Shown here piece after piece: positions 16,001 to 32,969 of a stretch of 64,000 nucleotides of DNA; position 1 is the stretch's first letter; the number at the start of each line of letters is the position of its first letter. The stretch spans positions 1,674,001 through 1,738,000 of the forward strand of contig NZ_CP046703.1 of assembly GCF_009873495.1 (NCBI RefSeq), in the 5' to 3' direction. The position numbers were made by a program, and so were the translations under genes. The notes below the pieces were generated by a model. The model saw only the letters and a program-made list of their open reading frames with translations. It was not told where the DNA came from and did not search any database. This DNA is from Nostoc sp. ATCC 53789 (lineage in GTDB: Bacteria > Cyanobacteriota > Cyanobacteriia > Cyanobacteriales > Nostocaceae).

Positions 16001-16012
16001 CTTCCGCCTCAT

Positions 16013-17116
16013 TCAAATCCCCTTGAATCCCATATCAGTTTCTACTTGTTGCTGTGCCGGAATCGAACTCACTTTGCCAGACGCAATGCTAGAAGTCTTA
16101 CGCCAAATTCCCAGTTGGCTCAAAAATATGCCTACTAAAATCACGCTACCGCCAATATATTGAGGCAAGGTAGGGGCTTCACCCAAAATTAAATAGGCTG
16201 CTAAGATGCCCACAATTGGGCCAAATGAGCCAATTAAGGAAGCCGTAGATACAGTAGAAGTTTTCAAGCCTTTAATCAAAAAAGACTGGCCTAGCACCAC
16301 AATTAACCCACCGTAGAGAAACATCCATTGCCATAAGAACGGTGAGAGGACATCAGCAAAATGATTTTTGCCATAGAGGACTAAAGCAATGAAGAAAAAG
16401 ATTATGGTTCCTAGTCCAGTCCGAAAGATGCTATAGATTCCCAAAGGGATCTGTGAAAGATATTTCTTACCAATAATCGTAGAAGCCGTTGCAGCTATAG
16501 ATCCTACTGCTGCTAAAAGTTCCCCTATGCCTAAATTGAAACCTCCCATATTCATCATGGCTTCTGTTGGAGGTTGAAGGATGATAGTTAGGATAACACC
16601 GACAAACGCTGCGATCGCTCCGATAAATTCCCAAATATTTACCCGTTCCCTCAACAACCAGACTGACAAAGCTAGAGTTAGAGGCGGTTCCAAACGTCCT
16701 ACCAAGATGACATTATTTACCCCTGTGACCGAAAGTGCCTGGAAAATTAAGCCAGGGGCTAACGCTCCCGATAAAATAGCGACTGCTGTTAAACTGACCC
16801 AATCCGTCCTTGAGAGTTGCTTCAAAGTAGCTTTGTTCCACTGTCGCCCATAGATGAGGATCAAAAGTATCAAGGCGCAAAGGTTTCCCACAAATAAAAC
16901 ATTACATAAAGAAATCGGATTACGTTCCCCGATAAAATGTTCAGCACCGATTTCTGTTAGCCTTCGGGTAACTGCGCCAGATGCTGCAAAAATTAGCATT
17001 GCTAGCCAGAGATATGTTTGTCCTGAAACTCTATGAATTAAGCGATGTGGTCTTTTGGGCCTAGTCACAATAGCATCACTGCAATAAAAGCATTGCTCAT
17101 TATAAGTTGCCGTCAC
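16013..17116 (-). CDS. EamA/DMT-family membrane transporter
   Basis: The 367-residue product contains about ten hydrophobic segments arranged as two EamA halves. Family features include GRLEPPLTLALSVWLLRERVNIWEFIGAIAAFVGVILTI in the first half and SFGPIVGILAAYLILGEAPTLPQYIGGSVILVGIFLSQLG in the second. These drug/metabolite transporters sit in the cytoplasmic membrane and export or exchange small metabolites; the substrate is unknown. The start is a GTG at 17116, giving a cytoplasmic N-tail with CxxC before the first helix at about residue 30. It is transcribed alone. Confidence 0.88.
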   Translation of the reverse strand: MTATYNEQCFYCSDAIVTRPKRPHRLIHRVSGQTYLWLAMLIFAASGAVTRRLTEIGAEHFIGERNPISLCNVLFVGNLCALILLILIYGRQWNKATLKQLSRTDWVSLTAVAILSGALAPGLIFQALSVTGVNNVILVGRLEPPLTLALSVWLLRERVNIWEFIGAIAAFVGVILTIILQPPTEAMMNMGGFNLGIGELLAAVGSIAATASTIIGKKYLSQIPLGIYSIFRTGLGTIIFFFIALVLYGKNHFADVLSPFLWQWMFLYGGLIVVLGQSFLIKGLKTSTVSTASLIGSFGPIVGILAAYLILGEAPTLPQYIGGSVILVGIFLSQLGIWRKTSSIASGKVSSIPAQQQVETDMGFKGI

Positions 17117-17320
17117 GCAGTTCAGAATGAGGTTTTGTTGAGAAAATACTTAAATTATGCTGTGATTTTGAGTTACCATCATTGCCTGAGAAAGTGCTGA
17201 GAATCAACTAAATTTTCTCAAAGGATAAATTCATGAAAATAGTGGCTTAGTTTCAATAAGTTCTCACTCCCACCTGAGATGCTTGAGATGTTCAGGATAA
17301 AACAGAAAAGAGAGTCACAA

Positions 17321-17683
17321 ATGAAACTCGCACCCTTACTTACAAGTTTTGCTTTGGTTGGTTTTTTCACAGTTTGGGACGTACCATTAAAAGCGATCAA
17401 TCCGTCATTAGTGCAGGCATCGGCAGCCGAAGAATTGTCTGTAACACAGAAACTAGATTTGCTTACTAAAAGTAAGGGTCAGATTGGTAGTGGTGATCAA
17501 CTACGTCGTTTCTTTTTTGCTGACTTGGAGCCAATCGGTATCCAGTTAGGTGGTGCAGGTCATGTAGTTAACCTTTATAACAAAGCCAATGATGTCACAT
17601 TTGCTTACTGTTCTCACTACGATGTGATTGTAGCGATTAAGAAGGGTAAGGTGACAAAATTTGAACCCAGCGAAGTGAAGTAA
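17321..17683 (+). CDS. Small exported hypothetical protein
   Basis: From the ATG at 17321 the product is 120 residues: a signal peptide (about 1-32, LLTSFALVGFFTVW, with cleavage near QASAAEE) and a mature part of about 90 residues. AAAAGAGAG precedes this ATG; an in-frame ATG at 17279 would place 14 charged residues before the signal and is less likely. The mature part has one Cys and a repeated IGxQ/VxLY pattern but no family I recognise. It probably resides in the periplasm. Confidence 0.68.
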   Translation: MKLAPLLTSFALVGFFTVWDVPLKAINPSLVQASAAEELSVTQKLDLLTKSKGQIGSGDQLRRFFFADLEPIGIQLGGAGHVVNLYNKANDVTFAYCSHYDVIVAIKKGKVTKFEPSEVK

Positions 17684-17743
17684 TACTAAATCCATTTTCT
17701 AATTAATATTTGCTAAGACCAGAGGAGCAATTTGATTACATCT

Positions 17744-17833
17744 AGGACTTACGCAAAACTACACACGGTAGACGCAATTCATTAATTGTCTCTACCAGAA
17801 AATCAATGTTTTGGCTATTTTTGCGTAAGTTCT
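17744..17833. mobile_element. 90-bp MITE-like element with ACTTACGCAAAA ends
   Basis: AGGACTTACGCAAAA (17744-17758) and TTTTGCGTAAGTTCT (17819-17833) are inverted ends with one mismatch. A relative with one end only is at 11006. No target duplication could be made out. The rest of 17684-18273 is gene-free. Confidence 0.65.
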
Positions 17834-18273
17834 GACATTTATTTAGGTTGCGATGTCTGACAAGACACTACTTTGCATCTACGATCTAGAACTCTTGAAC
17901 AAGGGGTCTAGACCAGATGTGTTTCAACTCTTCGTCCCCTGGAAAAGGACATAGGTTGCTTCTCTGACAGTCAACCGCTTTTGATCCGTACTGGGAGAAT
18001 TGGCCACTCGTCCAGCTATAAAAAGTGATCCCTTTGCCATAGCCGAAATAGCGTAGTAGCGCCCATTGTGAGAGGTTAAGCTTATAGAGCTTTTGTCAAT
18101 AAGCAAATAGTACTTAAAAATATGCTAAAAATCGGGCTAATCAACAGAATTTTTAGGCTAGCGATCGCATCATATTTAAAAGCATCATTCGTTCTTGCAA
18201 TCAAAATACGGAATTGCATATACTGTCTCCTCACTGGCAACCCTAAATTTAGATATCTGAAGAATTACGAGTG

Positions 18274-20091
18274 TTAATGAGAAATGCCATACTGTTTTGC
18301 CTGCATATTCCATAGTGCGGTATATTCGCCTCCACGCTGTAAAAGTTCCTGATGAGTACCATCCTCAATTAAATGACCAGATTTGAGAACTAAGATTCGG
18401 TCAGCTATACGCACTGAAGCCAGTCGATGGGTAATCAAGATTGTAGTCTTACCCTCAGCTAGCTCAATAAAGCGAAGGTAAAGATCACACTCACTGCGGG
18501 GGTCGAGTGCAGCAGTAGGCTCATCCAATAGCAAAACCTGGGCTTCTTGGCGGACAAAAGCACGAGCTAGAGCTAACTTTTGCCATTGGCCTCCAGAAAG
18601 TTCTGTACCGCCAAACTGCTTGCCCAGTGGTGTAGCCTCCTTTGTAGGAAAATGATCGACTAGTTTGACAATATCGGCTTTTTCAATCGCGTATTTGAGA
18701 ATGTCTGGATGCTCTAGAGCAGCTAGGTTTCCTAAAGCGATATTTTCCCCCAGCGTCAGCGCATAGTGACCAAAGTCTTGAAAAACTCCAGCAATTTGCT
18801 GCCGCCATTGCTCTAAATTTAAATTTCTGAGGTCTATACCATCGACTAGAATACATCCTTGCGTTGGATCGTATAGCCTGGTTAACAGCTTGACTAAAGT
18901 AGTTTTCCCTGCACCATTTTCTCCTACTATGGCTACTGTTTGTCCAGGGAAAAGGGTAAAAGAAATATCTTGGAGTGCTAATCTACCATCTGGATAGTAA
19001 AAATCAACTTTTTCAAAAGTAATACCTGAACGAATCGGAGTCGGTACTTTTTCTCCAGGTACGCTCAGTAGCATGGGGATTGGACTGTCAAGAAAATTGA
19101 AAAACTGTTGCATGTAGAGAATATTTTCAAACAGATCCAGCCAATTAGCCACCAATCTTTCAAGGTTATTCTGGAAGTAAGTCAATGACTGTACAAATAA
19201 AAGTACACTGCCTGGACTGAATTCTCCTTTAAAAGCTTTCTGTACCACCCAGTAGAAAGAAAAACCATTTCCCAAAGTGCTGAGGATAGCTAGACTAGAC
19301 GACCAAAATGCTTGCTTGTCCCTCAGATAGCGCATAGATTGATGTAAAGACTGAAATGCTTGCAGATAACGCTCGATAAAAAAGGAACCTAGCTTAAATA
19401 ACCTGATTTCTTTGGCATAGGTATCAGTAAGCATCACCGAAGTGTAATATTCCATTCTTCGAGCTTGGGGACTGTTCTCAAATAAATTTAGCCAAATAGC
19501 TTTGCCATACTGAGAAGAAACCACTATCTGGGGTATAGTTGCGATCGCTATCACCAGTGGTATCCAAAAAGCTAGAGGAACTAGTAACCAAACTATCACT
19601 ATTAAGGTCACTAAAGATCGACCTGATTCAACCAAATTTTCCAGTAAATTCAGTGGTTTATAGCCAACTTGTTGTTGCAACAGTTGTAGCTCATCATAGA
19701 ACAGAGAATCTTCAAAACGGCTCAAATCTGAAAAAGTATCAGCTTTCCGCATTAATAATAAGCTAATGTGAGCCGTTAACTTGTCATTGAGATTTCCTTG
19801 CAGTGCCAATACCCAAGGATACAGCAGTGATTCTAGTAGCAAAGCTCCAACCCATCCTGCTACCAAAGGGGCAAGAGTTGCATAACCTAATTCTCTACCA
19901 GATATTAAGGCTGTTGCTACAGTATCTACCACTAGCTTGGTTATCCAAACACTTATGGCAGGAAGAAAACCTTGTAATACCGTGACAGCAATCAACAAGA
20001 CTATTTCTCTGGGTGCTGCTGTCCATAATAAAGGTAAAGAACGAAATAAAGCTTTAGTGTAGCCTGCAAGCCAAACTCTTAAATCGCTCAT
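18274..20091 (-). CDS. ABC exporter, fused membrane and ATP-binding domains (peptide exporter type)
   Basis: The 605-residue half-transporter has a membrane domain (about 1-330, six hydrophobic stretches) followed by an ATPase domain (about 350-600). Walker A is GENGAGKTT, the signature is LSGGQ, Walker B is VLLLDEP, and the switch histidine is in THR. There is no C39 peptidase domain in front, so it would not itself cut a double-glycine leader. It probably acts as a homodimer in the inner membrane. It lies 823 bases from, and divergent to, the Cys-rich precursor gene, which makes it the likely exporter of the mature peptide. The ATG at 20091 is used; a TTG one codon upstream is also in frame. 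Confidence 0.88.
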   Translation of the reverse strand: MSDLRVWLAGYTKALFRSLPLLWTAAPREIVLLIAVTVLQGFLPAISVWITKLVVDTVATALISGRELGYATLAPLVAGWVGALLLESLLYPWVLALQGNLNDKLTAHISLLLMRKADTFSDLSRFEDSLFYDELQLLQQQVGYKPLNLLENLVESGRSLVTLIVIVWLLVPLAFWIPLVIAIATIPQIVVSSQYGKAIWLNLFENSPQARRMEYYTSVMLTDTYAKEIRLFKLGSFFIERYLQAFQSLHQSMRYLRDKQAFWSSSLAILSTLGNGFSFYWVVQKAFKGEFSPGSVLLFVQSLTYFQNNLERLVANWLDLFENILYMQQFFNFLDSPIPMLLSVPGEKVPTPIRSGITFEKVDFYYPDGRLALQDISFTLFPGQTVAIVGENGAGKTTLVKLLTRLYDPTQGCILVDGIDLRNLNLEQWRQQIAGVFQDFGHYALTLGENIALGNLAALEHPDILKYAIEKADIVKLVDHFPTKEATPLGKQFGGTELSGGQWQKLALARAFVRQEAQVLLLDEPTAALDPRSECDLYLRFIELAEGKTTILITHRLASVRIADRILVLKSGHLIEDGTHQELLQRGGEYTALWNMQAKQYGISH

Positions 20092-20914
20092 CAATTAAAC
20101 CTAATTTTTTATTCGAGTATCAAGTAAATAAGCTTGATGCCAGTATTTAAAACCTATCTTATATATTCCCCTAACTTAAAATTCGCTATCAGCGCTATTA
20201 CAAAATGGTTTTTTACTGTCAGTATGCTTTTTCTTTTAAAGTCTCTCTAGCTTTTCTGCATCAGTAACCAATGCAGAAAGTAATATTAGGCGCTATCCAA
20301 AATAAAGATAATCCTACTTAAGAAATAAAAATATTACTATCAAGACTAAAAACAATATTACTTAGGTATGAATAAAAAACTCTAGAAAAAGATAATGTTA
20401 TAAGAGTTAGATGATCAAAAAAAGAGAATGTGACGCTAAAAGTAGCAAAAGCATTCTCAAAGACTAGGTTTTAGGGAAGATAAATTCCATGAGACAATAC
20501 AATTACGTCGAGATATTCCTCCCTGTGGCGACCTCCTGAAAAAGGAGGTACATAAATTATAAGTCTTTTTTATTCAGGGTTGGAAGGATCTTTAAATGAT
20601 TAAAATTTTAATCAGACTGTATTGTCCTAGGTGATATTTTCCTTAACTTGCCAAAAAGTGATTTTGATCTTTTGTGGATTAGTTAAGATTCTGAATAAAA
20701 GACTGAGTGTTTTTGTTTACCTATAACCGGATGTAAATGATAGTTAGACATTAACCGCCATCTCGTTTTTTGATCATACTTTACATTCGCTAGTTCCAAC
20801 ATCAATTCTTCCGTGAAAGCTGATTGAGACATGAAGATCATTACAGCTTTTGACTGACTCGAATGCAGATTTAAAAACAGGCTAATGAATTTAATTTCAA
20901 AGGAATGAGTAACC
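20092..20914. promoter_or_regulatory. Divergent regulatory region of the LAP cluster
   Basis: This 823-base AT-rich spacer lies between the exporter and the precursor. It contains the hairpin ACCTCCT-GAAAA-AGGAGGT (near 20531-20549), followed by a T-rich run (20565). AAAGGA (20899-20904) lies ten bases before the precursor ATG. No gene is called here; a minus-strand frame across the precursor start is judged chance. Confidence 0.45.
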
Positions 20915-21271
20915 ATGCTTGCAGAAAAAACACTGACCCAACAAACAATAGATATGCGTTTAGAAGACAAAGCAGACAAACTTGAACAACTGCTGTTGTC
21001 CGATGAGGAAATTGCAGCTTTAGAAAAGTTAGCAATGCCAGGAATGTTTGAATCTGAGACTAGTCAAAGATGGTTTGCTAATTGCGGTGGATGTGGTGGA
21101 TGTGTCGGATGTAGGGGATGCGGATGTAGGGGATGCGGATGTCGAGGATGCGGATGTCGAGGATGCGGATGTCGAGGATGCGGATGTCGAGGATGCGGAT
21201 GTCGAGTTGCTGAAGGTGGAACAATATCAGGTGTGCTAGACGACACCGATGAGGTCGGTTTTGGATACTAA
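20915..21271 (+). CDS. Cys-rich precursor peptide of a linear azol(in)e-containing peptide
   Basis: The 118-residue peptide has an acidic, helix-prone leader (about 1-58, with KLEQLLLSDEEIAALEKLAM) and a core (about 60-97) that starts NCGGCGGCVGC and continues as six RGCGC pentapeptides plus Arg. The core has 16 Cys, no Ser or Thr, and seven Arg. A 21-residue acidic tail follows, ending GFGY. The repeats are encoded by near-identical 15-bp units (GGATGCGGATGTCGA), pointing to growth by slippage. Downstream genes for an E1-like protein, YcaO and SagB-type dehydrogenase suggest that the Cys become thiazolines and then thiazoles. The layout recalls the CXX-repeat heterocycloanthracin precursors of Bacillus, but the period is five, not three. 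The bioactivity is unknown. A metallothionein-like metal binder is the main alternative. Confidence 0.85.
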   Translation: MLAEKTLTQQTIDMRLEDKADKLEQLLLSDEEIAALEKLAMPGMFESETSQRWFANCGGCGGCVGCRGCGCRGCGCRGCGCRGCGCRGCGCRGCGCRVAEGGTISGVLDDTDEVGFGY

Positions 21272-21356
21272 ATAAGCTGGAAATAGAACAGCAATTCCGT
21301 CATTTTAGAAACCAATTTTTTTAAGTTTAGAGCCACAATATCTGGCTTTAAAAGTT

Positions 21357-21429
21357 AAAAACCCTGTCTTTTAAGTTGTTTTTTTGCATTCATCAATTTT
21401 ATAGCTGCAAAAGCAGGGTTTTTCATTTT
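21357..21429 (+). terminator. Attenuator-like hairpin between precursor and maturation genes
   Basis: AAAAACCCTG (21357-21366) pairs perfectly with CAGGGTTTTT (21414-21423). An inner pairing TTTTGCA/TGCAAAA extends the stem, and T-rich sequence follows. Partial termination here would give more precursor than enzyme, as is common in peptide natural-product operons. Confidence 0.65.
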
Positions 21430-21507
21430 CTCAATATTTTTGGATACAACCGAGTTTTCAGATTTTTCTATTTCTTTGATGGAGCTTGGGATAATAAAAC
21501 AAAGCCT

Positions 21508-22635
21508 ATGAAATTAAATGATGCTCAACGCCTGCGTCTACTAGAACACGTTGTCGTTCACACTATGCGGTCAGATTGCAATGGCGAAGAAACTATGATA
21601 TTCAATACGAGGCGGCGAACCCTGACAGTGAAGGGTCAAGCACTGCATGATGTAGAAAAAATTGTTTTACCTTTATTAGATGGTTCCCGAACAATAGGAG
21701 AAATTCGGGCGGCAATTTGCGAAAAGTTGACAGATTCTTCACTAAATCAATGTTTAGAGTTTTTGATGGACAATCGTTTAGTAGATGAGTTGCTGGAAGA
21801 TCCAGTTGATTTAGATAGTCGTACATATTTACTTCCTCAAATCAGCCTCTATCATGAGCTAGGCTTTAAGCAAAAAGATGCCCAGAAGCACTTAGCGAAC
21901 GCGAGGATTGCTGTTTTTGGACTCGGAGGTTCAGGGTTGATAGCTGCAATTAATTTGGCTAGTGCTGGTATCGGTTTTCTCCGCCTATGTGATGATATCT
22001 GCACATTTTCATCTGATTTACCGATGATGTCAGGCTCAGTCTTTAATCAAATAGGTGCTTTTCGAGTTGTGGAAGCAGCTCGACAAATCGAGGCGATCGC
22101 AAAAGTAACTCAAACTGAAACTGTGACAGATCCTTTAACTAACGACGAAACAGTAAATGCTTTGCTTGAGGACGTTGATCTGGTGATTGTCGCCACCGAT
22201 GCCGTATCTGTCAATCTCGCTTATCGCCTGAACAGACTATGCCTGAAGATGCAGCGCCCATTGCTACCAGGTGGCGCAGTTGGTGTTGAAGGAACTTTTG
22301 GGCCGCTAGTCTTTTCTCAGGATGGCCCTTGCTATCTTTGCTATCGGATGCGGTCTATTGCCTGTGCCAAGCTTCCAGAAGCGGAATTCGCTATTGAGCA
22401 GTTTCTCGACCGAGAACGCCGTTCTCAACCGCGTTTGCGAGAAAACTTACCGATCGCGCAGATGTTGGTTGGTAGTTATCTGGCTCTTGAAACAGTGAAG
22501 ATGTTGCTCGGTTTGCCAATCGCCACTGACGGTAAATTACTGCATCTAGACTTGCTCGGCACAAAGCTGACTCACAACGTTGTGCTGAAGAAACCTGGTT
22601 GTCCACATTGTTCAGGACAGGAGAAAACAAAGTGA
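21508..22635 (+). CDS. E1/ThiF-like cyclodehydratase partner (TOMM C-type protein)
   Basis: The 375-residue protein has an N-terminal region (about 1-115) with the size of a RiPP leader-recognition domain, then an E1-like Rossmann fold (IAVFGLGGSGLIAAINLASAG at about 134). Structural zinc cysteines appear as CYLC (about 276) and CPHC (about 367). The segment where true E1 enzymes carry an adenylation Arg is diverged (FSSDLPMMSGS), as in TOMM C proteins, which bind the leader and stimulate YcaO rather than activating ubiquitin. The ATG at 21508 is chosen; the frame is open upstream to 21376 but that overlaps the hairpin. The stop overlaps the YcaO start by four bases (GTGA), implying coupled translation. 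Confidence 0.85.
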   Translation: MKLNDAQRLRLLEHVVVHTMRSDCNGEETMIFNTRRRTLTVKGQALHDVEKIVLPLLDGSRTIGEIRAAICEKLTDSSLNQCLEFLMDNRLVDELLEDPVDLDSRTYLLPQISLYHELGFKQKDAQKHLANARIAVFGLGGSGLIAAINLASAGIGFLRLCDDICTFSSDLPMMSGSVFNQIGAFRVVEAARQIEAIAKVTQTETVTDPLTNDETVNALLEDVDLVIVATDAVSVNLAYRLNRLCLKMQRPLLPGGAVGVEGTFGPLVFSQDGPCYLCYRMRSIACAKLPEAEFAIEQFLDRERRSQPRLRENLPIAQMLVGSYLALETVKMLLGLPIATDGKLLHLDLLGTKLTHNVVLKKPGCPHCSGQEKTK

Positions 22636-23942
22636 ATGCAGCGATCGCTAGTCCACGCTGGCGCGATTTAGTTAGCCCGCATACGGGAATCATCCGAGCC
22701 ATTGATAGATTTACCAAGCCTTATACAGAGTTTGATCTGCCAGTTTTGTGGCAAGCCGAATTAGCAAATTTCCAACTTCGCAAACAGCAGGATGATTTAC
22801 GCTACGGCGTAGGTAGGGGCATGACTGATGAACAAGCAATTTTTGGTGCAGTTGGCGAAGCAGTAGAGCGCTACTGTGGTGGTATTGTAGATTATCGGCA
22901 ACTGATTGTCAGTAGCTACGCAGAATTAAGTCATTGCGCCGTCCATCCTCCAACTTTTTTCTCTTTTTCTGACAAACAATACTCTGACCCCAATTTTCCA
23001 TATTCACCTTTCGATCCGGCAACGCAGACTTCGTGGATACCTGCCCTTTCTCTAGCAAGCAACCTACAGGTTTTAGTTCCAGCATTTATGGTTTATTTCG
23101 ACTGGGATAGCAATCTACCAGGAGATTATATTTTACCGGTCACTTCTAATGGTATGGCTAGTGGCCCAACTCTTGAGTTTGCTGTTTGCAGTGGCTTGTG
23201 CGAGTTGATTGAGCGCGATGCTTTTATAATTACATGGTTAAACCGCCTACCTGCCCCACGCATTTATTTCGCTCACCGTCCAGGAATTGAGACGGAAATT
23301 TTAAGCCACTACGCCCGATTTGGCATTGAGCTAGTTACGTTCTATTTGATTACTGATATTCAGATCCCAGTTGTGATGGCAATGTTAATTGACCGTTCAG
23401 GTAAAAGTCCATCTGTTACAACTGGTCTAGGATGCCATCTCGATGGATCAACTGCGCTTCGTAAGGCAATTTTTGAAGTTTGCCAAGCCCGTTTTGGTGA
23501 TATAGAACGCATGGCTAGCGGCACTGGGATTAATCTCAATAAATATGAAGATGTGCAGAATTTGGACGATCACAGCGCTTTTTTCTACAAAACGGCTCGG
23601 CTACGCGAGTTGGCATTTTTGTTGGAGCATGACCAATACCTAACGGTTGAAGATTTACCAACTTATGCATCTTCAGTAGAGGTAGAAAAATTGCAATCGG
23701 TCATCGCCAGGTTGCATTCAGTGGGTGTTGAACCTTATTTAGTGGAAATTACAACCCCTGATATTGAGTCGCTCGGTTTTCGAGTAGTGCGGACTTTAGC
23801 CAGTGAACTAGTCCCAATATATTTTGGCTATGGACTAGAGCCATTGGGAACTCGGCGGTTGTTCAAGGTACCAGAAAGGTTAGGTTACGGTGAGCGACGT
23901 ACCGCAGATGACCTAAATCCGTGTCCACATCCTATGGCTTAA
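22632..23942 (+). CDS. YcaO-domain cyclodehydratase (TOMM D-type protein)
   Basis: The 436-residue YcaO protein uses ATP to activate the backbone amide and cyclise Cys onto it, forming azolines in the precursor. YcaO motifs are present: GAVGEAVERYCGG, SGLCELIERDAFI and STALRKAIFEVCQARFG. The C-terminus is PCPHPMA, which fits the PxPxP tail that azoline-forming YcaO proteins need for activity. The start is a GTG at 22632 with ACAGGAGA seven bases upstream; a TTG at 22599 is in frame but has no ribosome site. It overlaps the E1-like gene by four bases, so the two are made together. Confidence 0.92.
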   Translation: MNAAIASPRWRDLVSPHTGIIRAIDRFTKPYTEFDLPVLWQAELANFQLRKQQDDLRYGVGRGMTDEQAIFGAVGEAVERYCGGIVDYRQLIVSSYAELSHCAVHPPTFFSFSDKQYSDPNFPYSPFDPATQTSWIPALSLASNLQVLVPAFMVYFDWDSNLPGDYILPVTSNGMASGPTLEFAVCSGLCELIERDAFIITWLNRLPAPRIYFAHRPGIETEILSHYARFGIELVTFYLITDIQIPVVMAMLIDRSGKSPSVTTGLGCHLDGSTALRKAIFEVCQARFGDIERMASGTGINLNKYEDVQNLDDHSAFFYKTARLRELAFLLEHDQYLTVEDLPTYASSVEVEKLQSVIARLHSVGVEPYLVEITTPDIESLGFRVVRTLASELVPIYFGYGLEPLGTRRLFKVPERLGYGERRTADDLNPCPHPMA

Positions 23943-24119
23943 TACGATTTTAGATTTTGGATTAGGAATTACTTTCTTGTCGCAATCATTTTTTGACGTT
24001 GCATAAATGCGGGATGAATTGGCGGGTGCATTGATAAATCCTTCCAAATTTGGCTAAATCATCCCATGATTCAGCAACTCCCATTTTTTAAATTGGCTTA
24101 AAACGAGGAAATCAGCGTA

Positions 24120-24851
24120 ATGTACACAGCCAATGAGCCACTGGAGTTAGCTCTATTGTATCATTTGAACTCTCCAGTACCTAAAAGTTCTGTCAAGCGT
24201 GTTCCGGCTACTGAACTGCGGTATATGCCGGAGGCTCCTTTTCTGGAACTTCCAAAAGCACCACACGATAACCTGCTGAGTAAGCTTTTAGAGCGACGGT
24301 CTTCTGTGCGATCGTTTGATAAGTCGGTCATGCCAATGATCACATTAGCTCAGTTGCTTGATGCAGGATGCGGTCTCAATGGGCTGCGTCAAACAGATGG
24401 TTATACCTATGAAGCCCGAAACTCACCGTCTGCGGGAGGACTTTATCCGATTGAGATTTTTGTATCGACACAAGCGGTAGAAGGTTTAGCAGATGGATTA
24501 TATCACTACGAACCACGCGGTCATGGCTTACATCGGGTGAATGATGCAGTACCAACAGACTTTGTAGAATCTTTATTGCAGCAGGATTACATTGTAAATG
24601 CCAATGCTCTGTTTCTGTTCACATCTGTTTTTATGCGCTCAATGTGCAAATACGGTGCGCGTGGCTACCGTTTTGCACTTTTGGAAACTGGTCATCAAGC
24701 TGAAAATATATGTCTAATGGCTGTGCAATTGGGGCTGGATAGTCTGTGCATAGGTGGATTCTATGATATGAGTCTGAACGCCATGTTGGGTATTGATGGG
24801 AAGCGCCATGCGGCACTTTATTGTGTCGCCGTCGGTACTGCGAAGAAGTAG
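24120..24851 (+). CDS. SagB-type nitroreductase-fold dehydrogenase (TOMM B-type)
   Basis: The 243-residue flavoprotein belongs to the SagB-type branch of the nitroreductase fold. It shows RRSSVRSFD, then NSPSAGGLYPIEIFV and GLYHY, and later LLETGHQAENICLMAVQLGL. It would use FMN to oxidise thiazolines to thiazoles. GAGGAAA lies upstream of the ATG at 24120. It follows the YcaO gene by 177 bases on the same strand and ends the cluster, 45 bases before a convergent gene. An FMN-binding test would confirm activity. Confidence 0.9.
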   Translation: MYTANEPLELALLYHLNSPVPKSSVKRVPATELRYMPEAPFLELPKAPHDNLLSKLLERRSSVRSFDKSVMPMITLAQLLDAGCGLNGLRQTDGYTYEARNSPSAGGLYPIEIFVSTQAVEGLADGLYHYEPRGHGLHRVNDAVPTDFVESLLQQDYIVNANALFLFTSVFMRSMCKYGARGYRFALLETGHQAENICLMAVQLGLDSLCIGGFYDMSLNAMLGIDGKRHAALYCVAVGTAKK

Positions 24852-24896: not shown

Positions 24897-26102
24897 TTAA
24901 ATACCTCTTAATGCAGCTATGGGATCGAGTCGTGCTGCTTTTCTGGCTGGCGCTACACCAAAGATTAGACCAATGCTACCAGAAACGCTGGCTGTGAGAA
25001 ATATTGCTCCTATTGGTACTGATGGTTGTAAGGGGGAGAACATAGCAACTATAAGTGCGCCACTAACGCCAATACCAGTTCCGACTAAACCGCCTGCTAC
25101 GGACAGGATAATCGCCTCAATTAAGAATTGGGTAAGAATTGCTTTTTCTGTTGCGCCTATTGCTTTGCGTAGTCCAATTTCTTGGGTACGTTCGGTGACA
25201 GAAACTAGCATAATGTTCATGATGCCAATTCCACCAACGAATAAAGATATACCTGCGATCGCCGCCAAGACTAAACTTAAATTTATCGTCACTTGATTGA
25301 TCAAGTCTTGGACTGACTTATTGGCGGCAACTGTGAAATCTTTTCTGCCCCGTCTGCGTGTCAGAATATTAATTGTTTGAAATGCCGCTGCGCGAATGCT
25401 ATCTTGATTTTTTGCTGACAGTTCTAAGTAGTCGATGGGAATACCATTAGGCGATCGCCTACCCACTAGCTGATCTGCCATAGTACTAATTGGCACGTAA
25501 GCTATATCATCGGGGTTATCCCCCATAAATGCACCTTTAGCTTGCATAATCCCAATAACTTGAAAACTCAAGTTATTCATCTGTAGTAACTGACCGATGG
25601 GATTTTCATTACCAAAAAGTTTCCGCGCAACTACTGGCCCTAAAATCACCACCTGAGAATTTTGATTTAGCTCGATAGGGTCAAAAAAACGGCCTTGATG
25701 TACCTGGAGATTGCGGACATAAAGAATTCCTGGCGTTGTACCTGTAACATTAACTTTACTGATGCGTCCCTGACGCGATAATAGCAAGTTGCTGCTAATT
25801 TGCGGGGCAACTTCTCGCACGGCGGGAGCCATAGTTGCGATCGCTTGAGCATCTGCCAAGAACAGTGAAGGCACATCAGAGCTTAACCCCTCTAGATTAT
25901 CGCCACCAGCGAACACTGATAGTTGATTTGGCCCCAGAGACTCCAACTTTTCTTGCGTAAATTTTTGCGCCCCTTGCCCAATAGCGATCATTGTAATCAC
26001 AGAGGCATTGCCAATGATAATACCAAGCATGGTCAACATGCTACGGAGCTTATTTGCAGCCAATGTTTTGACTGCCATTTGTGTACTTTCTAGTAAATTC
26101 AT
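24897..26102 (-). CDS. MacB-like ABC transporter permease (FtsX domain), no ATPase
   Basis: The 401-residue permease has a first helix (about 20-45), a periplasmic MacB_PCD-type domain (about 50-250) and three C-terminal helices of the FtsX domain, with the motif VTERTQEIGLRKAIGATEKAILTQFLIEAI. It lacks the ATPase domain of full-length MacB, and no ATPase gene is beside it, so the ATPase must come from elsewhere. It follows the adaptor gene by 98 bases and forms an inner-membrane unit for export across the envelope, as in DevBC-like systems. Substrates of such pairs include peptides and glycolipids. Confidence 0.9.
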   Translation of the reverse strand: MNLLESTQMAVKTLAANKLRSMLTMLGIIIGNASVITMIAIGQGAQKFTQEKLESLGPNQLSVFAGGDNLEGLSSDVPSLFLADAQAIATMAPAVREVAPQISSNLLLSRQGRISKVNVTGTTPGILYVRNLQVHQGRFFDPIELNQNSQVVILGPVVARKLFGNENPIGQLLQMNNLSFQVIGIMQAKGAFMGDNPDDIAYVPISTMADQLVGRRSPNGIPIDYLELSAKNQDSIRAAAFQTINILTRRRGRKDFTVAANKSVQDLINQVTINLSLVLAAIAGISLFVGGIGIMNIMLVSVTERTQEIGLRKAIGATEKAILTQFLIEAIILSVAGGLVGTGIGVSGALIVAMFSPLQPSVPIGAIFLTASVSGSIGLIFGVAPARKAARLDPIAALRGI

Positions 26103-26200
26103 AATAATTCGTAATTCGTAGTTCTGAGTCGATAATTACAACTAGGGAAATATTGTTGAATGATCGAAAAATATCAGTACCAATTGAAGATTCGGCTATT

Positions 26201-27517
26201 CTAAAATCCAATTTTATCTACACCTTCAATTTTTTCTGTACTGGGGGGAGACATTAACACGCGATCGCCTTTCTGAAGTCCTGCCAAAACTTGCACTTGA
26301 TCACCACTAGTAGCACTTACTTTCACTGGTTGGAAACTGGCAGCATTTTGACTATCAATAACATATACCCCGGTTTGACCATTGGGCTGAGTTGTTACAG
26401 CCGCCAGAGGAATTACTAGAGCATTCTTAATAGTCTGACTGTGGAATGTCAGGCGTACATTCATTCCTGATTTCAACTTGTCTTGCCCATTCGATAAAAC
26501 TACCTTAACTCGAAAAAAAGTGATATTGTTTTCCTGCACTGCTCTTGGTGCAATTAGACTTACTTTTCCTTTGAAGGTTTCATTAGGATAGGTGTCTGTT
26601 TGAATATCTACAAACTGACCGCGATTGATTTTGGCAATGCTAGCTTCAGGAATTCTGGCTTCAATTTCTAAGCCACTAGAGAGTTCAGCAATTGAGGTCG
26701 AGGTTGCACCTTCAGTATTAGAAGCTGATGTGGTGGGTGTAACAAAATCCCCTTCTTGGGCAAAGCGACGGGTAATAATTCCCGCAAATGGGGCACGGAT
26801 GATAGCATTATTCAACTGACTTTGATAAAAAACTAACTGAGCTTTAGCCTGTGCTACCTCGGCTTCAGCTTGGGCAATTTCCTCGGGACGTAATCCATTT
26901 TTGGCTTTCTTCAAACTTTCGCGTTGTTCTTTGAGCCGTGCTAGTTCTGCTTCTAAGTTAGCTCTAGCTTCTTGTTCTTTAGTGACAAACTCTTCAAAGG
27001 CATTGCGGGAAATAGCACCCTCTTGTACCAACACTTGATTGCGTTGCATCTCTACGATTGTTCGATTCAATCGAGTTTGAGATGCAGCTACTAATGCTTC
27101 TGCGGAAGCAACTCTAGCTTTAGATTCAGCAATGTCTTCTTGTCGAGTGCCAGCAACCTTTTGTTTCAAATCAGCCACAGCTTTATTTAGTGATGCTTGA
27201 TACTGATTTACCTGTGCTTGTAATCTTTCACTATCCATAAGGGCAATAATTTGTCCTTTTTGGACGCGATCACCTTCATTCACATACAATTTAGCAATGC
27301 GTCCAGAATCTTCTGGGCTAAGATTGATTTTTTGTAATGCTTGCACCACTCCATTAGCTTGAATCTGCACTACCCAATCTTTAGTTTGCACTAAGATAGT
27401 TTGACTAGTTAAATCTGGCTGGGAGGAAGTTTCTTGAGTTTTCCAGTAAACTGTCGCCATACTTCCCAAGGTGCTGGCTAACAAGATACCGAAAATCCAA
27501 GGACTAAATTTCTTCAT
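26201..27517 (-). CDS. HlyD/MacA-like periplasmic adaptor protein
   Basis: The 438-residue membrane-fusion protein begins with a membrane anchor (about 7-26). A lipoyl/barrel-sandwich half follows (LSPEDSGRIAKLYVNEGDRVQKGQIIALMDSERL), then a long coiled coil (about 105-230) with hairpin repeats of Ala, Glu and Gln. The second lipoyl half and beta-barrel include IIRAPFAGIITRR. It links an inner-membrane exporter to an outer-membrane duct. It is the first gene of a pair with the MacB-like permease. Start ATG at 27517. Confidence 0.92.
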   Translation of the reverse strand: MKKFSPWIFGILLASTLGSMATVYWKTQETSSQPDLTSQTILVQTKDWVVQIQANGVVQALQKINLSPEDSGRIAKLYVNEGDRVQKGQIIALMDSERLQAQVNQYQASLNKAVADLKQKVAGTRQEDIAESKARVASAEALVAASQTRLNRTIVEMQRNQVLVQEGAISRNAFEEFVTKEQEARANLEAELARLKEQRESLKKAKNGLRPEEIAQAEAEVAQAKAQLVFYQSQLNNAIIRAPFAGIITRRFAQEGDFVTPTTSASNTEGATSTSIAELSSGLEIEARIPEASIAKINRGQFVDIQTDTYPNETFKGKVSLIAPRAVQENNITFFRVKVVLSNGQDKLKSGMNVRLTFHSQTIKNALVIPLAAVTTQPNGQTGVYVIDSQNAASFQPVKVSATSGDQVQVLAGLQKGDRVLMSPPSTEKIEGVDKIGF

Positions 27518-27940: not shown

Positions 27941-28251
27941 ACATAATTTTGCCTTAAATTTGTCTAAAAAATTATTAACTCTCTACTATTACTTATAAAT
28001 AATCTATTTCTTATTTAAATTATTCCCTGGTTATATTTTAATAAGCTGAAATTCCAACTTTCGGTTATCCAAAAATCTACCTATTGCAGTACATCTGTCT
28101 GCAAGGATTTACATATTGGTGCAATAGTTACTTTTTGGTAAACATGGCTCTAAATCCTGATTCTTCGGCTAGCAGCTTCATTTGACATAGCTAAATCCCT
28201 GACAATACATCCTTTAGGTTAGTATTTCCAAGTTTTCATGCTATCTAACAA

Positions 28252-29124
28252 TTAAAGTGGCGTAATCCAATAAGTAATGCCTCGGATAAGTAGTTTCTTA
28301 AAACCAAATAAAGGTAAATTCTCTTCATCTAAACCCACATAAGTCCAATGTGGAACATCATTTTCTACTGTTTGAAACCAACCATTTTGATTAAGAGCTT
28401 TTCTTTGTTCTTTACTGCCTACGCGTAAATCAATGGCTAATCCCCAGAGATGTTGTGAAGTTCCGGGAGGTGCAACCAAGCCGAGAATTTTTGTTTCTTT
28501 GCCCTGTTGAACTTTTGCCAAAATTTGATTATTAGCATATTTTTGCCAAAATCTTAAATTCGTGTTGAAAGTGCGAGTACAATCACCAGAACCATAACCA
28601 GATTTTAGCGGGATATGTTGTTGAACTCGCGCTTTATTTAGAGCATCAGCCGCCGACTTTTGTAAATAACAATCGTTAGTGCCATCAACATGACCCATTG
28701 TTAAAGTAGCTTGAAATTCTTGGGTTTCTTGTTCATTAGCAAAAATATCTTTTGGCGGCAGTTTAATTCCGACATCTTGATTTACAAAAACTGCACCATA
28801 AGCTCGCAGCAAAGTATATTCATAAGTACCAGGCTGAGGGATTGTAGGTAATTTCTGGTTAATCGCAGATAAAAAACGCTGGTTACTATTTAATTCTGGG
28901 TTGGGAATAAATGGTTTTGGTGTTATCTCTTTAGAGGTATTTATACAAGGTGATGAAACAGTTGGAGAGCATACATTTAATGGTTGTGAAGTTCTAGCAA
29001 ATTGGTGGTGGGTAATCTCATTACTCGCTACTAAAACAAAAATTATTCCGATAACTATACTGATGAAACTTGCCTTTCTAATAAATCTAGTAATATCTTT
29101 TTGCTTTTTGATGGTGAGTTTCAT
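28252..29124 (-). CDS. M15 family D,D-carboxypeptidase-like protein
   Basis: The 290-residue product has an N-terminal membrane anchor or signal (about 14-35, ASFISIVIGIIFVLVA) and a C-terminal metallopeptidase domain of the M15/VanY kind. Zinc ligands are in GTSQHLWGLAIDL (SxHxxGxAxD) and in VPHWTYVG. Enzymes of this family cut D-Ala-D-Ala or other peptidoglycan cross-links, outside the inner membrane. The ATG at 29124 gives MKLTIKK; a TTG at 29151 is also in frame but less likely. The gene is single and divergent from mnmG. Confidence 0.86.
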   Translation of the reverse strand: MKLTIKKQKDITRFIRKASFISIVIGIIFVLVASNEITHHQFARTSQPLNVCSPTVSSPCINTSKEITPKPFIPNPELNSNQRFLSAINQKLPTIPQPGTYEYTLLRAYGAVFVNQDVGIKLPPKDIFANEQETQEFQATLTMGHVDGTNDCYLQKSAADALNKARVQQHIPLKSGYGSGDCTRTFNTNLRFWQKYANNQILAKVQQGKETKILGLVAPPGTSQHLWGLAIDLRVGSKEQRKALNQNGWFQTVENDVPHWTYVGLDEENLPLFGFKKLLIRGITYWITPL

Positions 29125-29502
29125 TTTTAAATAATTACTTAGTTGATTCAAAGGTAAACGTAACAGCCTTGTCCAAATATCTATTGTTGATAAATTAAAA
29201 AAAATTTATTAGAGTCAAACTATATTTTTATACATTTAAAAAAGTATTTAATATGTTAGTAAGAAAACAATTCGTGTTAATTACTAACTATGTGAACAAT
29301 AGTTGTGGTAAACAAACCGGAATGTTGTCACAAAATTTAAAAAATATAATATTTTTTATTGAATACTCAAGTTTAAAAAGAGAAACTTGTCTCTGATTGA
29401 GTACTAGTAAATTTGATAACTTTTTTATTAGAAAGTTACATCCATGAAACCACTGGAACAGCTAAAATTGAAAAGAACTCTAAGCTTGCCGATCCTGTAA
29501 GT
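29125..29502. other. AT-rich divergent spacer before mnmG
   Basis: About 378 bases, very AT-rich, between the divergent M15 peptidase and mnmG genes. It should hold promoters for both. No hairpin or repeat was seen. Confidence 0.4.
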
Positions 29503-31425
29503 ATGACCATGCACAATTCCGTTCAATTCCAAGACGCTTTTGATGTCATAGTCGTCGGTGCAGGTCACTCCGGTTGCGAAGCGGCTCTGGCCTCTGCACG
29601 CCTCGGTTGTCGTACCCTGTTATTGACGCTCAACTTGGATAGAATCGCTTGGCAACCCTGTAATCCAGCAGTGGGTGGCCCGGCAAAATCTCAGTTGACT
29701 CATGAGGTAGATGCACTCGGCGGGGAAATAGGTAAAGTAGCAGACCGCACCTACCTGCAAAAACGTATCCTCAACTCTTCACGGGGACCTGCTGTTTGGG
29801 CATTACGCGCCCAAACGGACAAGCGCGAATATGCAGCAGTGATGAAGAATATTGTCGAGAACCAAGAAAACTTGACAATCCGCGAAAGTATGGTGACAGA
29901 TTTGGTGCTGGGTGCTAATGATGAAGTCATCGGCGTTGAAACTTATTTTGGTGTAGGGTTCCAATGTAAAGCTGTCATCTTGACAACTGGCACTTTCCTG
30001 GGGGGCAAAATCTGGGTTGGCAACAAATCAATGCCGGCGGGACGCGCTGGGGAATTTGCGGCTGAGGGATTGACACAAACCCTAAATCGCCTGGGATTTG
30101 AAACCGGAAGACTCAAAACTGGAACCCCAGCACGGGTAGACAAGCGATCGGTGGATTATAGTAAAATGCTCATCCAGCCAGGAGATGAGGATGTGCGCTG
30201 GTTTAGTTTTGATCCAGAGGCATGGGTAGAACGGGAACAAATACCCTGCTACATCACCCGCACCACCGCCGAAACCCATCGTCTAATTCAAGATAATCTA
30301 CACCTGTCGCCAGTTTATGGCGGTTGGGTGGAAGCGAAAGGGCCGCGTTATTGTCCCAGCATTGAAGATAAAATTGTGCGCTTTGCCGATAAGGAAAGCC
30401 ATCAAATTTTTATTGAACCAGAAGGACGAGATATACCCGAACTTTATATCCAAGGGTTTTCTACAGGGTTGCCAGAAAATTTGCAGTTGCAAATGTTGCG
30501 GACTCTTCCCGGTTTAGAAAAATGTGTGATGCTGCGTCCGGCTTATGCTGTGGAATATGACTATTTACCTGCAACTCAGTGTTACCCCACACTGATGACC
30601 AAAAAGGTTGCTGGACTATTTTGTGCTGGGCAGATTAACGGCACGACAGGTTATGAAGAAGCCGCGGCCCAAGGACTGGTAGCAGGAATTAACGCGGCTA
30701 GATTTGTTCATTCTCAAGAAATGATTGTGTTTGCCCGCGAGCAAAGTTACATTGGAACGCTAATGGATGACCTGTGTACCAAGGATTTACGGGAACCTTA
30801 CCGGATGCTCACCAGTAGATCAGAGTACCGCTTATTATTGCGTTCTGACAATGCCGACCAACGTTTGACAACCCTGGGACGAGAAATTGGTTTAATTGAC
30901 GATCGCAGATGGAATCTATTTACCCAAAAACAAGCGAACATTACCACAGAAAAACAAAGATTACAAGCTACACGAGTCAAAGAACATGATGAAATGGGAA
31001 TAGCGATCGCATCTGATACCCAACAAGCAATCAGAGGTTCAATTACCCTCAACGACTTACTGCGCCGTCCGGGATTCCATTATGTTGACCTCGACAGGTT
31101 CGGGCTAGGAAACCCCAACCTCAACCGCGCCGAGAAAGAAGGCGCAGAAATTGACATTAAGTATTATGGCTATCTCGCTAGGCAACAAAATCAGATTGAC
31201 CAAATTGCCCGCCAAGCCCACCGCCAATTACCTGCGGATTTGGATTATACCACGATTGATACCCTTTCTAAAGAGGCACGGGAAAAGCTGACTCACGTAA
31301 AACCACTCACTCTTGGTCAAGCTGCACGTATCGGTGGTGTAAACCCAGCCGATGTTAACGCTTTATTATTATATTTAGAATTGCGTAAAACCAAGAGCCA
31401 GCATGAGTTTCCAGCGTTAGCTTAA
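29503..31425 (+). CDS. mnmG: tRNA uridine-5-carboxymethylaminomethyl modification enzyme MnmG
   Basis: The 640-residue FAD protein works with MnmE to modify U34 of several tRNAs, which keeps decoding accurate. The FAD-binding motif [19 protein letters not shown] is near the N-terminus, and the family features [22 protein letters not shown] and [14 protein letters not shown] follow. The C-terminal helical domain contains SREAR-like and [16 protein letters not shown] sequences. The ATG at 29503 (or 29509) gives a start just before the FAD motif; the frame is open to a TTG at 29413, but that extension is not conserved-looking. The gene is alone. Confidence 0.95.
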
Positions 31426-31655
31426 CAAAAACTTGATAAAGACTGAGTATAGTAGTAGGGAGGGAGATTGGTATGATAGATGACATAACTATTAGTACTG
31501 CTATCATCAACAATCCCCAGATTCAAGTTGATTTTAATACCAACGCTCAACCAACTCGTCTCAATAAGACGGTGGATTGGATATCTCATCTGTAATCCTA
31601 ATTCCCAGGCAGTAGGCGCGGCGTTTCCTCGTCCTAGCAATAACCCAGAACGTCT

Positions 31656-32969
31656 ATGTTACAAGAAGCCAGTACCCGTCTCATAGTACCAGAACCATCA
31701 GAAGATTTAATCGCCAACGAGCCTTGGTCGATAGAAAACTATGCTGATGGTCTCATGGATGAACTCTTTGCCGATATCGACTACATTCTGGATGTTAGTG
31801 ATCATCTGCCTTCTCAAACCGTTAGGCATGGTAGGCAGAACAAAGCTCAACGCCACTCGCCTCCAGAATACGTGCCTCTGCAAACAGTTACGATACCGCA
31901 GATTATTTTACCAAACGGACAGTCAGTTACTCAAAATAACAACAAGCACTTGAGTACCGTTGTCTTTGATAACGCCACCATTAAACCAGTTAGTAGAAAG
32001 CGTCAAAAAAGCAGTCGGACTTTGGGCAAACTGCTGATTGTCGGAACAACTTTAGGTGTGGCGATCGCTGGTATTCTCTACTTGGTACAGTCTGGAGTCG
32101 TATATCTTTTAAATCCCAACTTAACCCAGCAAGCTCTTCTAGCGCCGCAAACGCAATCACAATTGCCTGGAAAAACAGAAATTGAGGCAGATTTGGTTGA
32201 CTATATGCTGGGAGCGCTGGCAGTTATAGACAAGCAAGAATTAAAAGGCAATCGAAAATCTTTCAGTTCGGGATTCTCTAGTCAGACAAATACTAATCAA
32301 ATAGCCCTTGGTAACGGGCAAATAAATGGTAATTTACCACCACTTCCACTTCTGGCCAATAATACACCACCAGCCCCTAACCGTTCTGGCAGCGTTGTTG
32401 AGCGGATCTATGTTCCTGTTTATCAAGCGCCGTCGCCAATGCGCTACGCCCTGCCAGCAATTCCTGGTAGTCCCGCACTTCTACCACAAGTTGCCAATGC
32501 ATTGCAGGCATCTCAACCTAACGTGGTGAAAAGTGCCCTAAATACGGTGCGACAAGCTACCAAGCCTGTAACCGTCAATATGTTAGCGGCGGCTGTACGA
32601 GCAGAACTTAAACCTGTAGCTGGACGAACTGTACCGATTACCGTGCGACAAACACCCAAGCCTCTACCTGCATTACCAGTGGTTCCATTACGTGCAGCAC
32701 TCGCGCCAGAGTCAGAACCAACTATTACCCAGGAACAAGTATATCCGGCAACTGCGATCGCAGTTGCTCCGAGTAATACCCTAGAAGGATTGCTAGAGTT
32801 AGGTAACAAATCTGCCGCTTTGTTTAAAATTGACGGCGTGACTCGCCGCATCAATATGGGTGAAAGCATTGGCCAGAGCGGTTGGACACTGGTAGAGGTT
32901 AGTAATGGCGAAGCTGTCATCCGCCGTAACGGTGAAGTGCGATCCATTTACACAGGGCAGAAGTTGTAA
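31656..32969 (+). CDS. Single-pass membrane protein with GspC/PilP-like C-terminal domain
   Basis: The 437-residue protein has a cytoplasmic N-terminal part (1-125), one membrane helix (about 129-152, LLIVGTTLGVAIAGILYLVQSGV) and a long Pro/Ala/Asn-rich periplasmic linker. A C-terminal domain of about 50 residues follows (ALFKIDGVTRRINMGESIGQ, then GWTLVEVSNGEAVIRRNGEVRSI). That domain resembles the homology region of GspC and PilP, proteins that connect the inner and outer parts of type II secretion and type IV pilus machines. I infer a role in assembling such a complex. No other secretion gene is nearby. Confidence 0.72.
   Translation: MLQEASTRLIVPEPSEDLIANEPWSIENYADGLMDELFADIDYILDVSDHLPSQTVRHGRQNKAQRHSPPEYVPLQTVTIPQIILPNGQSVTQNNNKHLSTVVFDNATIKPVSRKRQKSSRTLGKLLIVGTTLGVAIAGILYLVQSGVVYLLNPNLTQQALLAPQTQSQLPGKTEIEADLVDYMLGALAVIDKQELKGNRKSFSSGFSSQTNTNQIALGNGQINGNLPPLPLLANNTPPAPNRSGSVVERIYVPVYQAPSPMRYALPAIPGSPALLPQVANALQASQPNVVKSALNTVRQATKPVTVNMLAAAVRAELKPVAGRTVPITVRQTPKPLPALPVVPLRAALAPESEPTITQEQVYPATAIAVAPSNTLEGLLELGNKSAALFKIDGVTRRINMGESIGQSGWTLVEVSNGEAVIRRNGEVRSIYTGQKL

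Follow-up and report, generated by a model that had tools for sequence, protein, structure and literature searches.

Five genes at positions 18274-24851 of a 64,000-nucleotide stretch of Nostoc sp. ATCC 53789 (contig NZ_CP046703.1, positions 1,674,001 to 1,738,000 of the forward strand; hereafter the window) very probably encode a cysteine-rich peptide and the enzymes that would form rings from its cysteines. They are an ATP-binding cassette (ABC) exporter, a 118-residue precursor peptide, an E1-like C protein, a discrete YcaO protein (D) and a SagB-type dehydrogenase. We consider it highly likely that together they form a pathway for a polythiazole of the thiazole/oxazole-modified microcin (TOMM), or linear azole-containing peptide (LAP), class, because curated family models match C, D and the dehydrogenase, the gene order is shared by relatives, the peptide core obeys consistent rules and the leader appears to be under selection. 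The pathway is of a known but little-studied kind, and we found no worked-out product in the literature.

Gene content of the locus

A sequence-only reading of this DNA had proposed a LAP/TOMM cluster in which a dehydrogenase and an exporter accompany precursor, C and D. All five genes lie where it put them, with curated matches for YcaO, SagB and the E1-like protein and ABC_tran for the exporter, and the proposal is well supported. The layout is as follows.

18274..20094, minus strand: ABC exporter, half-transporter (membrane domain plus ATPase), divergent from the precursor gene; ABC_tran E=5e-33
20915..21271, plus strand: precursor peptide gene, 118 residues; leader 1-56, core 57-96 (16 Cys), tail 97-118
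21083..21202, plus strand: precursor core with RGCGC repeat, bounded by the first and the last Cys; 16 Cys and 6 Arg, Ser and Thr absent
21203..21268, plus strand: acidic C-terminal tail ending GFGY, putatively follower-like; an FG-Y/N/H end in 36 of 36 distinct precursors
21361..21422, plus strand: terminator-like hairpin followed by a T run, between precursor and enzyme genes; predicted fold of 21361-21440, -17.0 kcal/mol
21508..22635, plus strand: E1-like (ThiF fold) C protein, 375 residues, putative leader-binding partner; ThiF 1.5e-30, TIGR03882
22632..23942, plus strand: discrete YcaO cyclodehydratase (D protein), 436 residues; TIGR03604 320 bits, C-terminus NPCPHPMA
24120..24851, plus strand: SagB-type flavin mononucleotide (FMN) azoline dehydrogenase, 243 residues; TIGR03605 135 bits

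The Pfam matches at the cluster are ThiF, YcaO, Nitroreductase and ABC_tran, and the window genome holds a single precursor match and a single TIGR03604 protein. Scanning public genome contigs with a profile made from the C alignment gave 24 loci, spread over Desmonostoc, Nostoc, Anabaena, Dolichospermum, Trichormus, Sphaerospermopsis, Amazonocrinis, Atlanticothrix, Fortiea and Dendronalium. What the sequences show directly is which genes are present, how they are conserved and distributed, and the rules of the core. D follows C in all 24 loci and SagB is present in 23. A precursor with the same leader lies 5' of C in 23 of these Nostocales loci, and the remaining one (L051) stops at a contig end before that point. 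The exporter stands beside the cluster in 22; L051 and L059 are cut off by the end of the contig.

The D protein is matched best by the cyclodehydratase subfamily model TIGR03604 (320 bits, cut-off 219). Its profile matches the solved cyclodehydratases MusD (1e-35), LynD (1e-34) and TruD (4e-33), and the alignment to LynD and TruD extends to the C-terminus, with NPCPHP over NPTPMP. SagB scores 135 bits against TIGR03605 (cut-off 78); its profile finds 3eo7, a putative nitroreductase, first (2e-45), then BmdC, CyaGox and McbC. Among the window and eight relatives, identity to the window protein is 69-79% for D and 68-85% for SagB, and SagB Lys177-Tyr178, a pair that we take to be important in McbC, is invariant in all nine.

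The C protein reaches 50 bits against TIGR03882 (cut-off 36.9), and ThiF matches all 24 members. Its profile also matches MoeB and MccB. The C residues aligned to the MoeB positions that presumably contact ATP are mostly unlike them, which suggests that C does not adenylate. In a tree of 25 C proteins, with 8 of 22 inner branches open, the window groups with Desmonostoc (100/99), and Dolichospermum lies near Anabaena and Trichormus.

The starts of two genes differ from those first given. For the E1-like gene, ATG 21508 is favoured over TTG 21376 and is most likely the start, because homology begins at that Met across the nine aligned C proteins; all 24 members of a larger alignment share Met 1. 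For YcaO, homology favours GTG 22632, overlapping the E1 stop, over TTG 22599. This GTG begins the part common to nine YcaO proteins and is most likely the start; five of the eight relatives have a further open start upstream. A script assigned the relatives' starts by taking the start codon closest to the match, so these calls are support rather than proof. The hairpin and T run ahead of the enzyme genes may act as an attenuator that lets the precursor exceed the enzymes.

The region 5' of the precursor (20500-20914) shows conserved patches in an upstream alignment and may hold a long 5' leader or a promoter region, with no named element; an Rfam scan of the window returned one tRNA only and had no match there.

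The precursor family

The window precursor has a Cys-free leader of 56 residues, a core of 40 and a tail of 22. The sequence-only reading gave the core 16 Cys and no Ser or Thr, which is right from the first to the last Cys; the tail does hold Ser and Thr, along with acidic residues. We compared 36 distinct precursors. The leader is 56 residues long in 32 of them, 51 in three and 57 in one, and 16 positions are invariant among the 32 leaders of 56 residues. Over the 496 pairs of those 32, the mean proportion of nonsynonymous differences (pN) is 0.12 and that of synonymous differences (pS) 0.31, a pattern that points to purifying selection on the leader.

The cores are hypervariable, with 9-20 Cys. 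Their 1486 residues comprise 641 Gly, 528 Cys, 185 Arg, and only 5 Ser or Thr, spread over four precursors; Asp and Glu are absent. Between successive Cys there is one residue in 57 cases, two in 405, three in 29 and four in one; adjacent Cys never occur. The C-terminal end is FGY in 33 precursors, FGN in two and FGH in one. The last 12 residues hold 3-6 acidic residues in all 36 and lack Arg and Lys in 35; the L050 precursor carries one Cys in its tail. Conservation is lower in the tail, its end excepted, than in the leader: mean pN is 0.28 and pS 0.44 over the last 15 codons. In the set behind these two values the window row still included the stop codon and is therefore displaced by one position; the counts given for the ends are corrected for this.

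The core also changes between near-identical strains. The locus L038, from Desmonostoc muscorum FACHB-395, has enzymes 98-100% identical to those of the window. Base differences number 9/1821 in the exporter, 16/1125 in C and 8/729 in SagB, without insertions or deletions; D, compared as protein only, is 98% identical. Within the precursor gene, leader (4/168 bases) and tail (2/69) differ by substitutions alone, while in the core 135 aligned columns contain 15 gap positions besides 6 substitutions. These gaps are drawn as 9 (8+1), 3 and 3 bases, and the reading frame is therefore kept. The 300 bases upstream have 2 gap positions and 15 substitutions. Repeat slippage or recombination would be a natural cause of the core changes. 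The window and L038 probably belong to one species, because a genome labelled as the same species (G583) has a precursor identical to that of L038.

The window precursor reaches the cut-off of no Pfam or NCBIfam precursor model and has no NHLP or Nif11 family match. The heterocycloanthracin precursor model TIGR03601 gives it 14.1 and 13.3 bits, against a cut-off of 35; of four precursors scored, the best (L102) also falls short of it, with 29.9 bits, and two give no match at all. In 291 genomes of the order, precursor searches matched 22 genomes at E <= 0.001. Ten are strong, the window included (E 4e-20 or better). We rejected the other 12 (E 8e-7 to 9e-4, 28-63% identity) as low-complexity Gly/Cys matches, mostly aligned over the core or a part, several with internal stops; in the one of them compared over a long stretch (G278, L037) none of nine query proteins, C and D included, matched at E 1e-5.

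Two variants of the family stand apart. Amazonocrinis nigriterrae (L040) has tandem precursors at 6752 and 7300 with near-identical leaders and cores of 20 and 12 Cys. L034 (8698-9036) and L035 (around 9212) form a divergent branch with CXXX-type cores rich in Tyr, Trp and Arg and with EFGN ends.

Proposed pathway and its alternatives

Every chemical step of the pathway, and the cleavage, export, structure and role of its product, is our proposal. The precursor leader would be held on the E1-like C protein while the YcaO protein, with ATP, cyclises core Cys to thiazolines, which SagB would oxidise to thiazoles. The core is a series of Cys units spaced by 1-4 residues, mostly CXX; units are gained and lost between near-identical strains, and Cys is almost its sole cyclisable residue. 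A peptidase encoded elsewhere would cut off the leader, and perhaps also the acidic tail, and the ABC exporter would secrete a cationic, thiazole-rich product. That product may have an antimicrobial or signalling role; the patchy distribution described below, together with the change of core at strain level, means that a part in competition or signalling between filamentous cyanobacteria would fit.

Several observations weigh against this TOMM pathway. The sequence-only reading had the five genes covering every step, which goes too far: they include neither a leader peptidase nor any recognisable immunity gene, and Pfam finds no peptidase domain in the exporter. The C protein scores 41.1 bits against the SagC-family model TIGR03603, far below its cut-off of 187.65. 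A leader-binding winged-helix element is likely at C residues 28-79; there PKMT_2nd matches 20 of 24 members with a best E of 0.0013, below the Pfam cut-off. One Dendronalium locus away from any contig edge (L057, 8001-17125) has precursor, C and D and no SagB match in the 17 kb covered, and it would yield a product with thiazolines only, barring a dehydrogenase encoded elsewhere.

The Dendronalium locus also lends something to the alternative we take most seriously, improbable as it is, in which the enzymes cyclise only part of the Cys and the mixture of free thiols and azoles makes a product that binds copper or zinc rather than a bacteriocin. The CXC and CXXC spacing and the basic residues would be metallothionein-like, and Cys are never adjacent, where cytolysins have contiguous blocks in the passages on them in PMC4603692. 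The strong conservation of both D and SagB speaks against this alternative. If the Cys repeat were instead an ordinary metallothionein-like protein lying by chance beside TOMM enzymes, with the true precursor elsewhere, its basic, Cys-rich character and the lack of any precursor model at cut-off would be explained; its position 5' of C in nearly every locus and the conserved leader and tail around a variable core would not. Metallothionein homology had been named beforehand as a refuting result, and the window precursor, taken from residue 14 onwards, matches no Pfam family up to E 0.1, hence no recognisable metallothionein family. With no such match and with synteny conserved, a plain metallothionein is largely refuted, and we give it hardly any weight. 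Proteins of the YcaO superfamily carry out several reactions, so this one could install another backbone change, such as a thioamide or amidine; the TIGR03604 score, the SagB and E1-like partners and a Cys-rich core nearly without Ser or Thr make that every bit as improbable.

Within the TOMM pathway, we can tentatively envisage a leader-core-follower polythiazole family in which a cationic core of nearly nothing but Cys as cyclisable residue is rebuilt among strains of a single species by gain and loss of repeat units while the enzymes stay near-unchanged, and in which the acidic FGY tail is a follower, a recognition element or charge-neutralising cap, removed on export. We think this doubtful in its full form. 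If true, it would be a natural combinatorial library, with enzymes that accept cores of 9 to 20 Cys and CXC and CXXC units in many different orders. For a group so far named from genomes, without an explored product, the present comparison sets out the precursor anatomy exactly and provides 36 natural variants of the core together with a compact set of enzymes. The system could reveal how one cyclodehydratase processes chains with as many as 20 non-adjacent Cys and whether the conserved C-terminal tail is a recognition element.

Known systems, distribution and genomic site

The cluster had been put forward as new, which holds only in part. A similar group was named in 2015: the passages on uncharacterised groups in Cox, Doroghazi and Mitchell (PMC4603692) list ten without an explored product, anabaenasin among them. 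They describe anabaenasin as found in 11 species, with 5 precursors, a discrete cyclodehydratase, a unique C protein and Gly- and Cys-rich precursors, with Anabaena as its namesake. The cluster studied here shares the discrete C and D, a C unlike that of other groups, the Gly/Cys-rich precursors and the presence in an Anabaena strain; it differs in that leader, tail and core rules, absent from those passages, are given here.

We take Anabaena sp. 90 to belong to the Dolichospermum clade. Among 16 genomes of the genus Dolichospermum, TIGR03604 exceeds its cut-off in eight: seven carry the present cluster, and one has the match in an open frame of 772 residues, a fused size. According to the passages in PMC4603692, a transposase separates C from D in Anabaena sp. 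90; in the seven clusters C and D lie side by side with no transposase seen between them. The matching description and this test make it probable that the cluster is anabaenasin. Our literature search found the name in PMC4603692 only, and no product of such a cluster in titles or the openings of abstracts. None of the seven putative bacteriocin clusters in the sections of the Anabaena sp. 90 genome paper considered (PMC3542288) is recognisable as the present one, and the portion of Wang 2011 (PMC3140520) considered has no mention of SagB, ThiF, YcaO, cyclodehydratase or cysteine.

Better-known systems are more distant. Heterocycloanthracin cores have CXX-like Cys repeats, and heterocycloanthracin and sonorensin (TIGR03601) share these and the TOMM enzymes with the present cluster. 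The sequence-only reading called heterocycloanthracin a distant analogue; with the window precursor at 13-14 bits against a cut-off of 35, the likeness stays an analogy. C and D are separate here (375 and 436 residues), whereas they are fused in heterocycloanthracin clusters (in the passages of PMC4603692). Microcin B17 and streptolysin S (SagBCD) likewise have discrete C, D and B proteins and ABC export; the present cluster differs in its C, far below the SagC-family cut-off, its nearly all-Cys core, its conserved acidic tail and, among the five genes, the lack of a CaaX-type protease. Cyanobactins and the NHLP/Nif11 azole peptides are also cyanobacterial YcaO peptides, and D aligns with LynD and TruD, but D is here discrete rather than fused and there is no PatA/PatG-type gene among the five.

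The distribution of C is restricted and patchy. Of 386 genomes sampled in the phylum, 16 have a full-length match (E < 1e-200); they make up 16 of the 43 sampled from the window's family, and none of the 343 from outside it has one. Matches at E 1e-8 occur in 65 genomes, and the 49 not counted above align to only part of C positions 105-279, as MoeB-like paralogues would. In the sample of the order C is present in 10 of 291 genomes, and in the window's own genus two of six have it (G168, G240, G265 and G496 do not).

The cluster and an adjoining transporter pair occupy a variable site, because the congener G240 has the flanking genes (window 16003-17746 and 28162-32962 match at 85-90%) with two unrelated frames of 345 and 505 residues between them. 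In G265, compared on the left side only, the flank matches up to 17746, and L038 is the only one of the 24 loci with the window's left flank genes in the stretch examined. The transporter pair adjoins SagB:

24897..27517, minus strand: MacB-like permease and HlyD-like membrane-fusion protein (MFP), Pfam matches; doubtful members of the cluster

No ATPase gene lies directly beside it. The pair is shared with L038 at 99% identity. Five of nine loci of one set and five of 24 of the other carry a different MacB/MFP pair (identities 56-58% and 49-51%) on the exporter side; these loci come from Dolichospermum and, in some cases, from Anabaena or Trichormus. The remaining 18 of 24 have no such pair in the stretch examined. 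With two pairs on opposite sides, such identities and so many loci without either, we did not accept the window pair as a firm part of the cluster. The two cluster-side MacB copies may be related, because a second copy in the window genome (L089) is less similar to that of L028 (49%) than the window's cluster copy is (56%).

The left edge of the variable site is marked by a dispersed repeat at 17743-17845, which resembles a miniature inverted-repeat transposable element and has terminal inverted repeats GGACTTACGCAAAA / TTTTGCGTAAGTTC. The window genome has 32 matches to it, which differ in length and include the repeat itself, and G496 has many.

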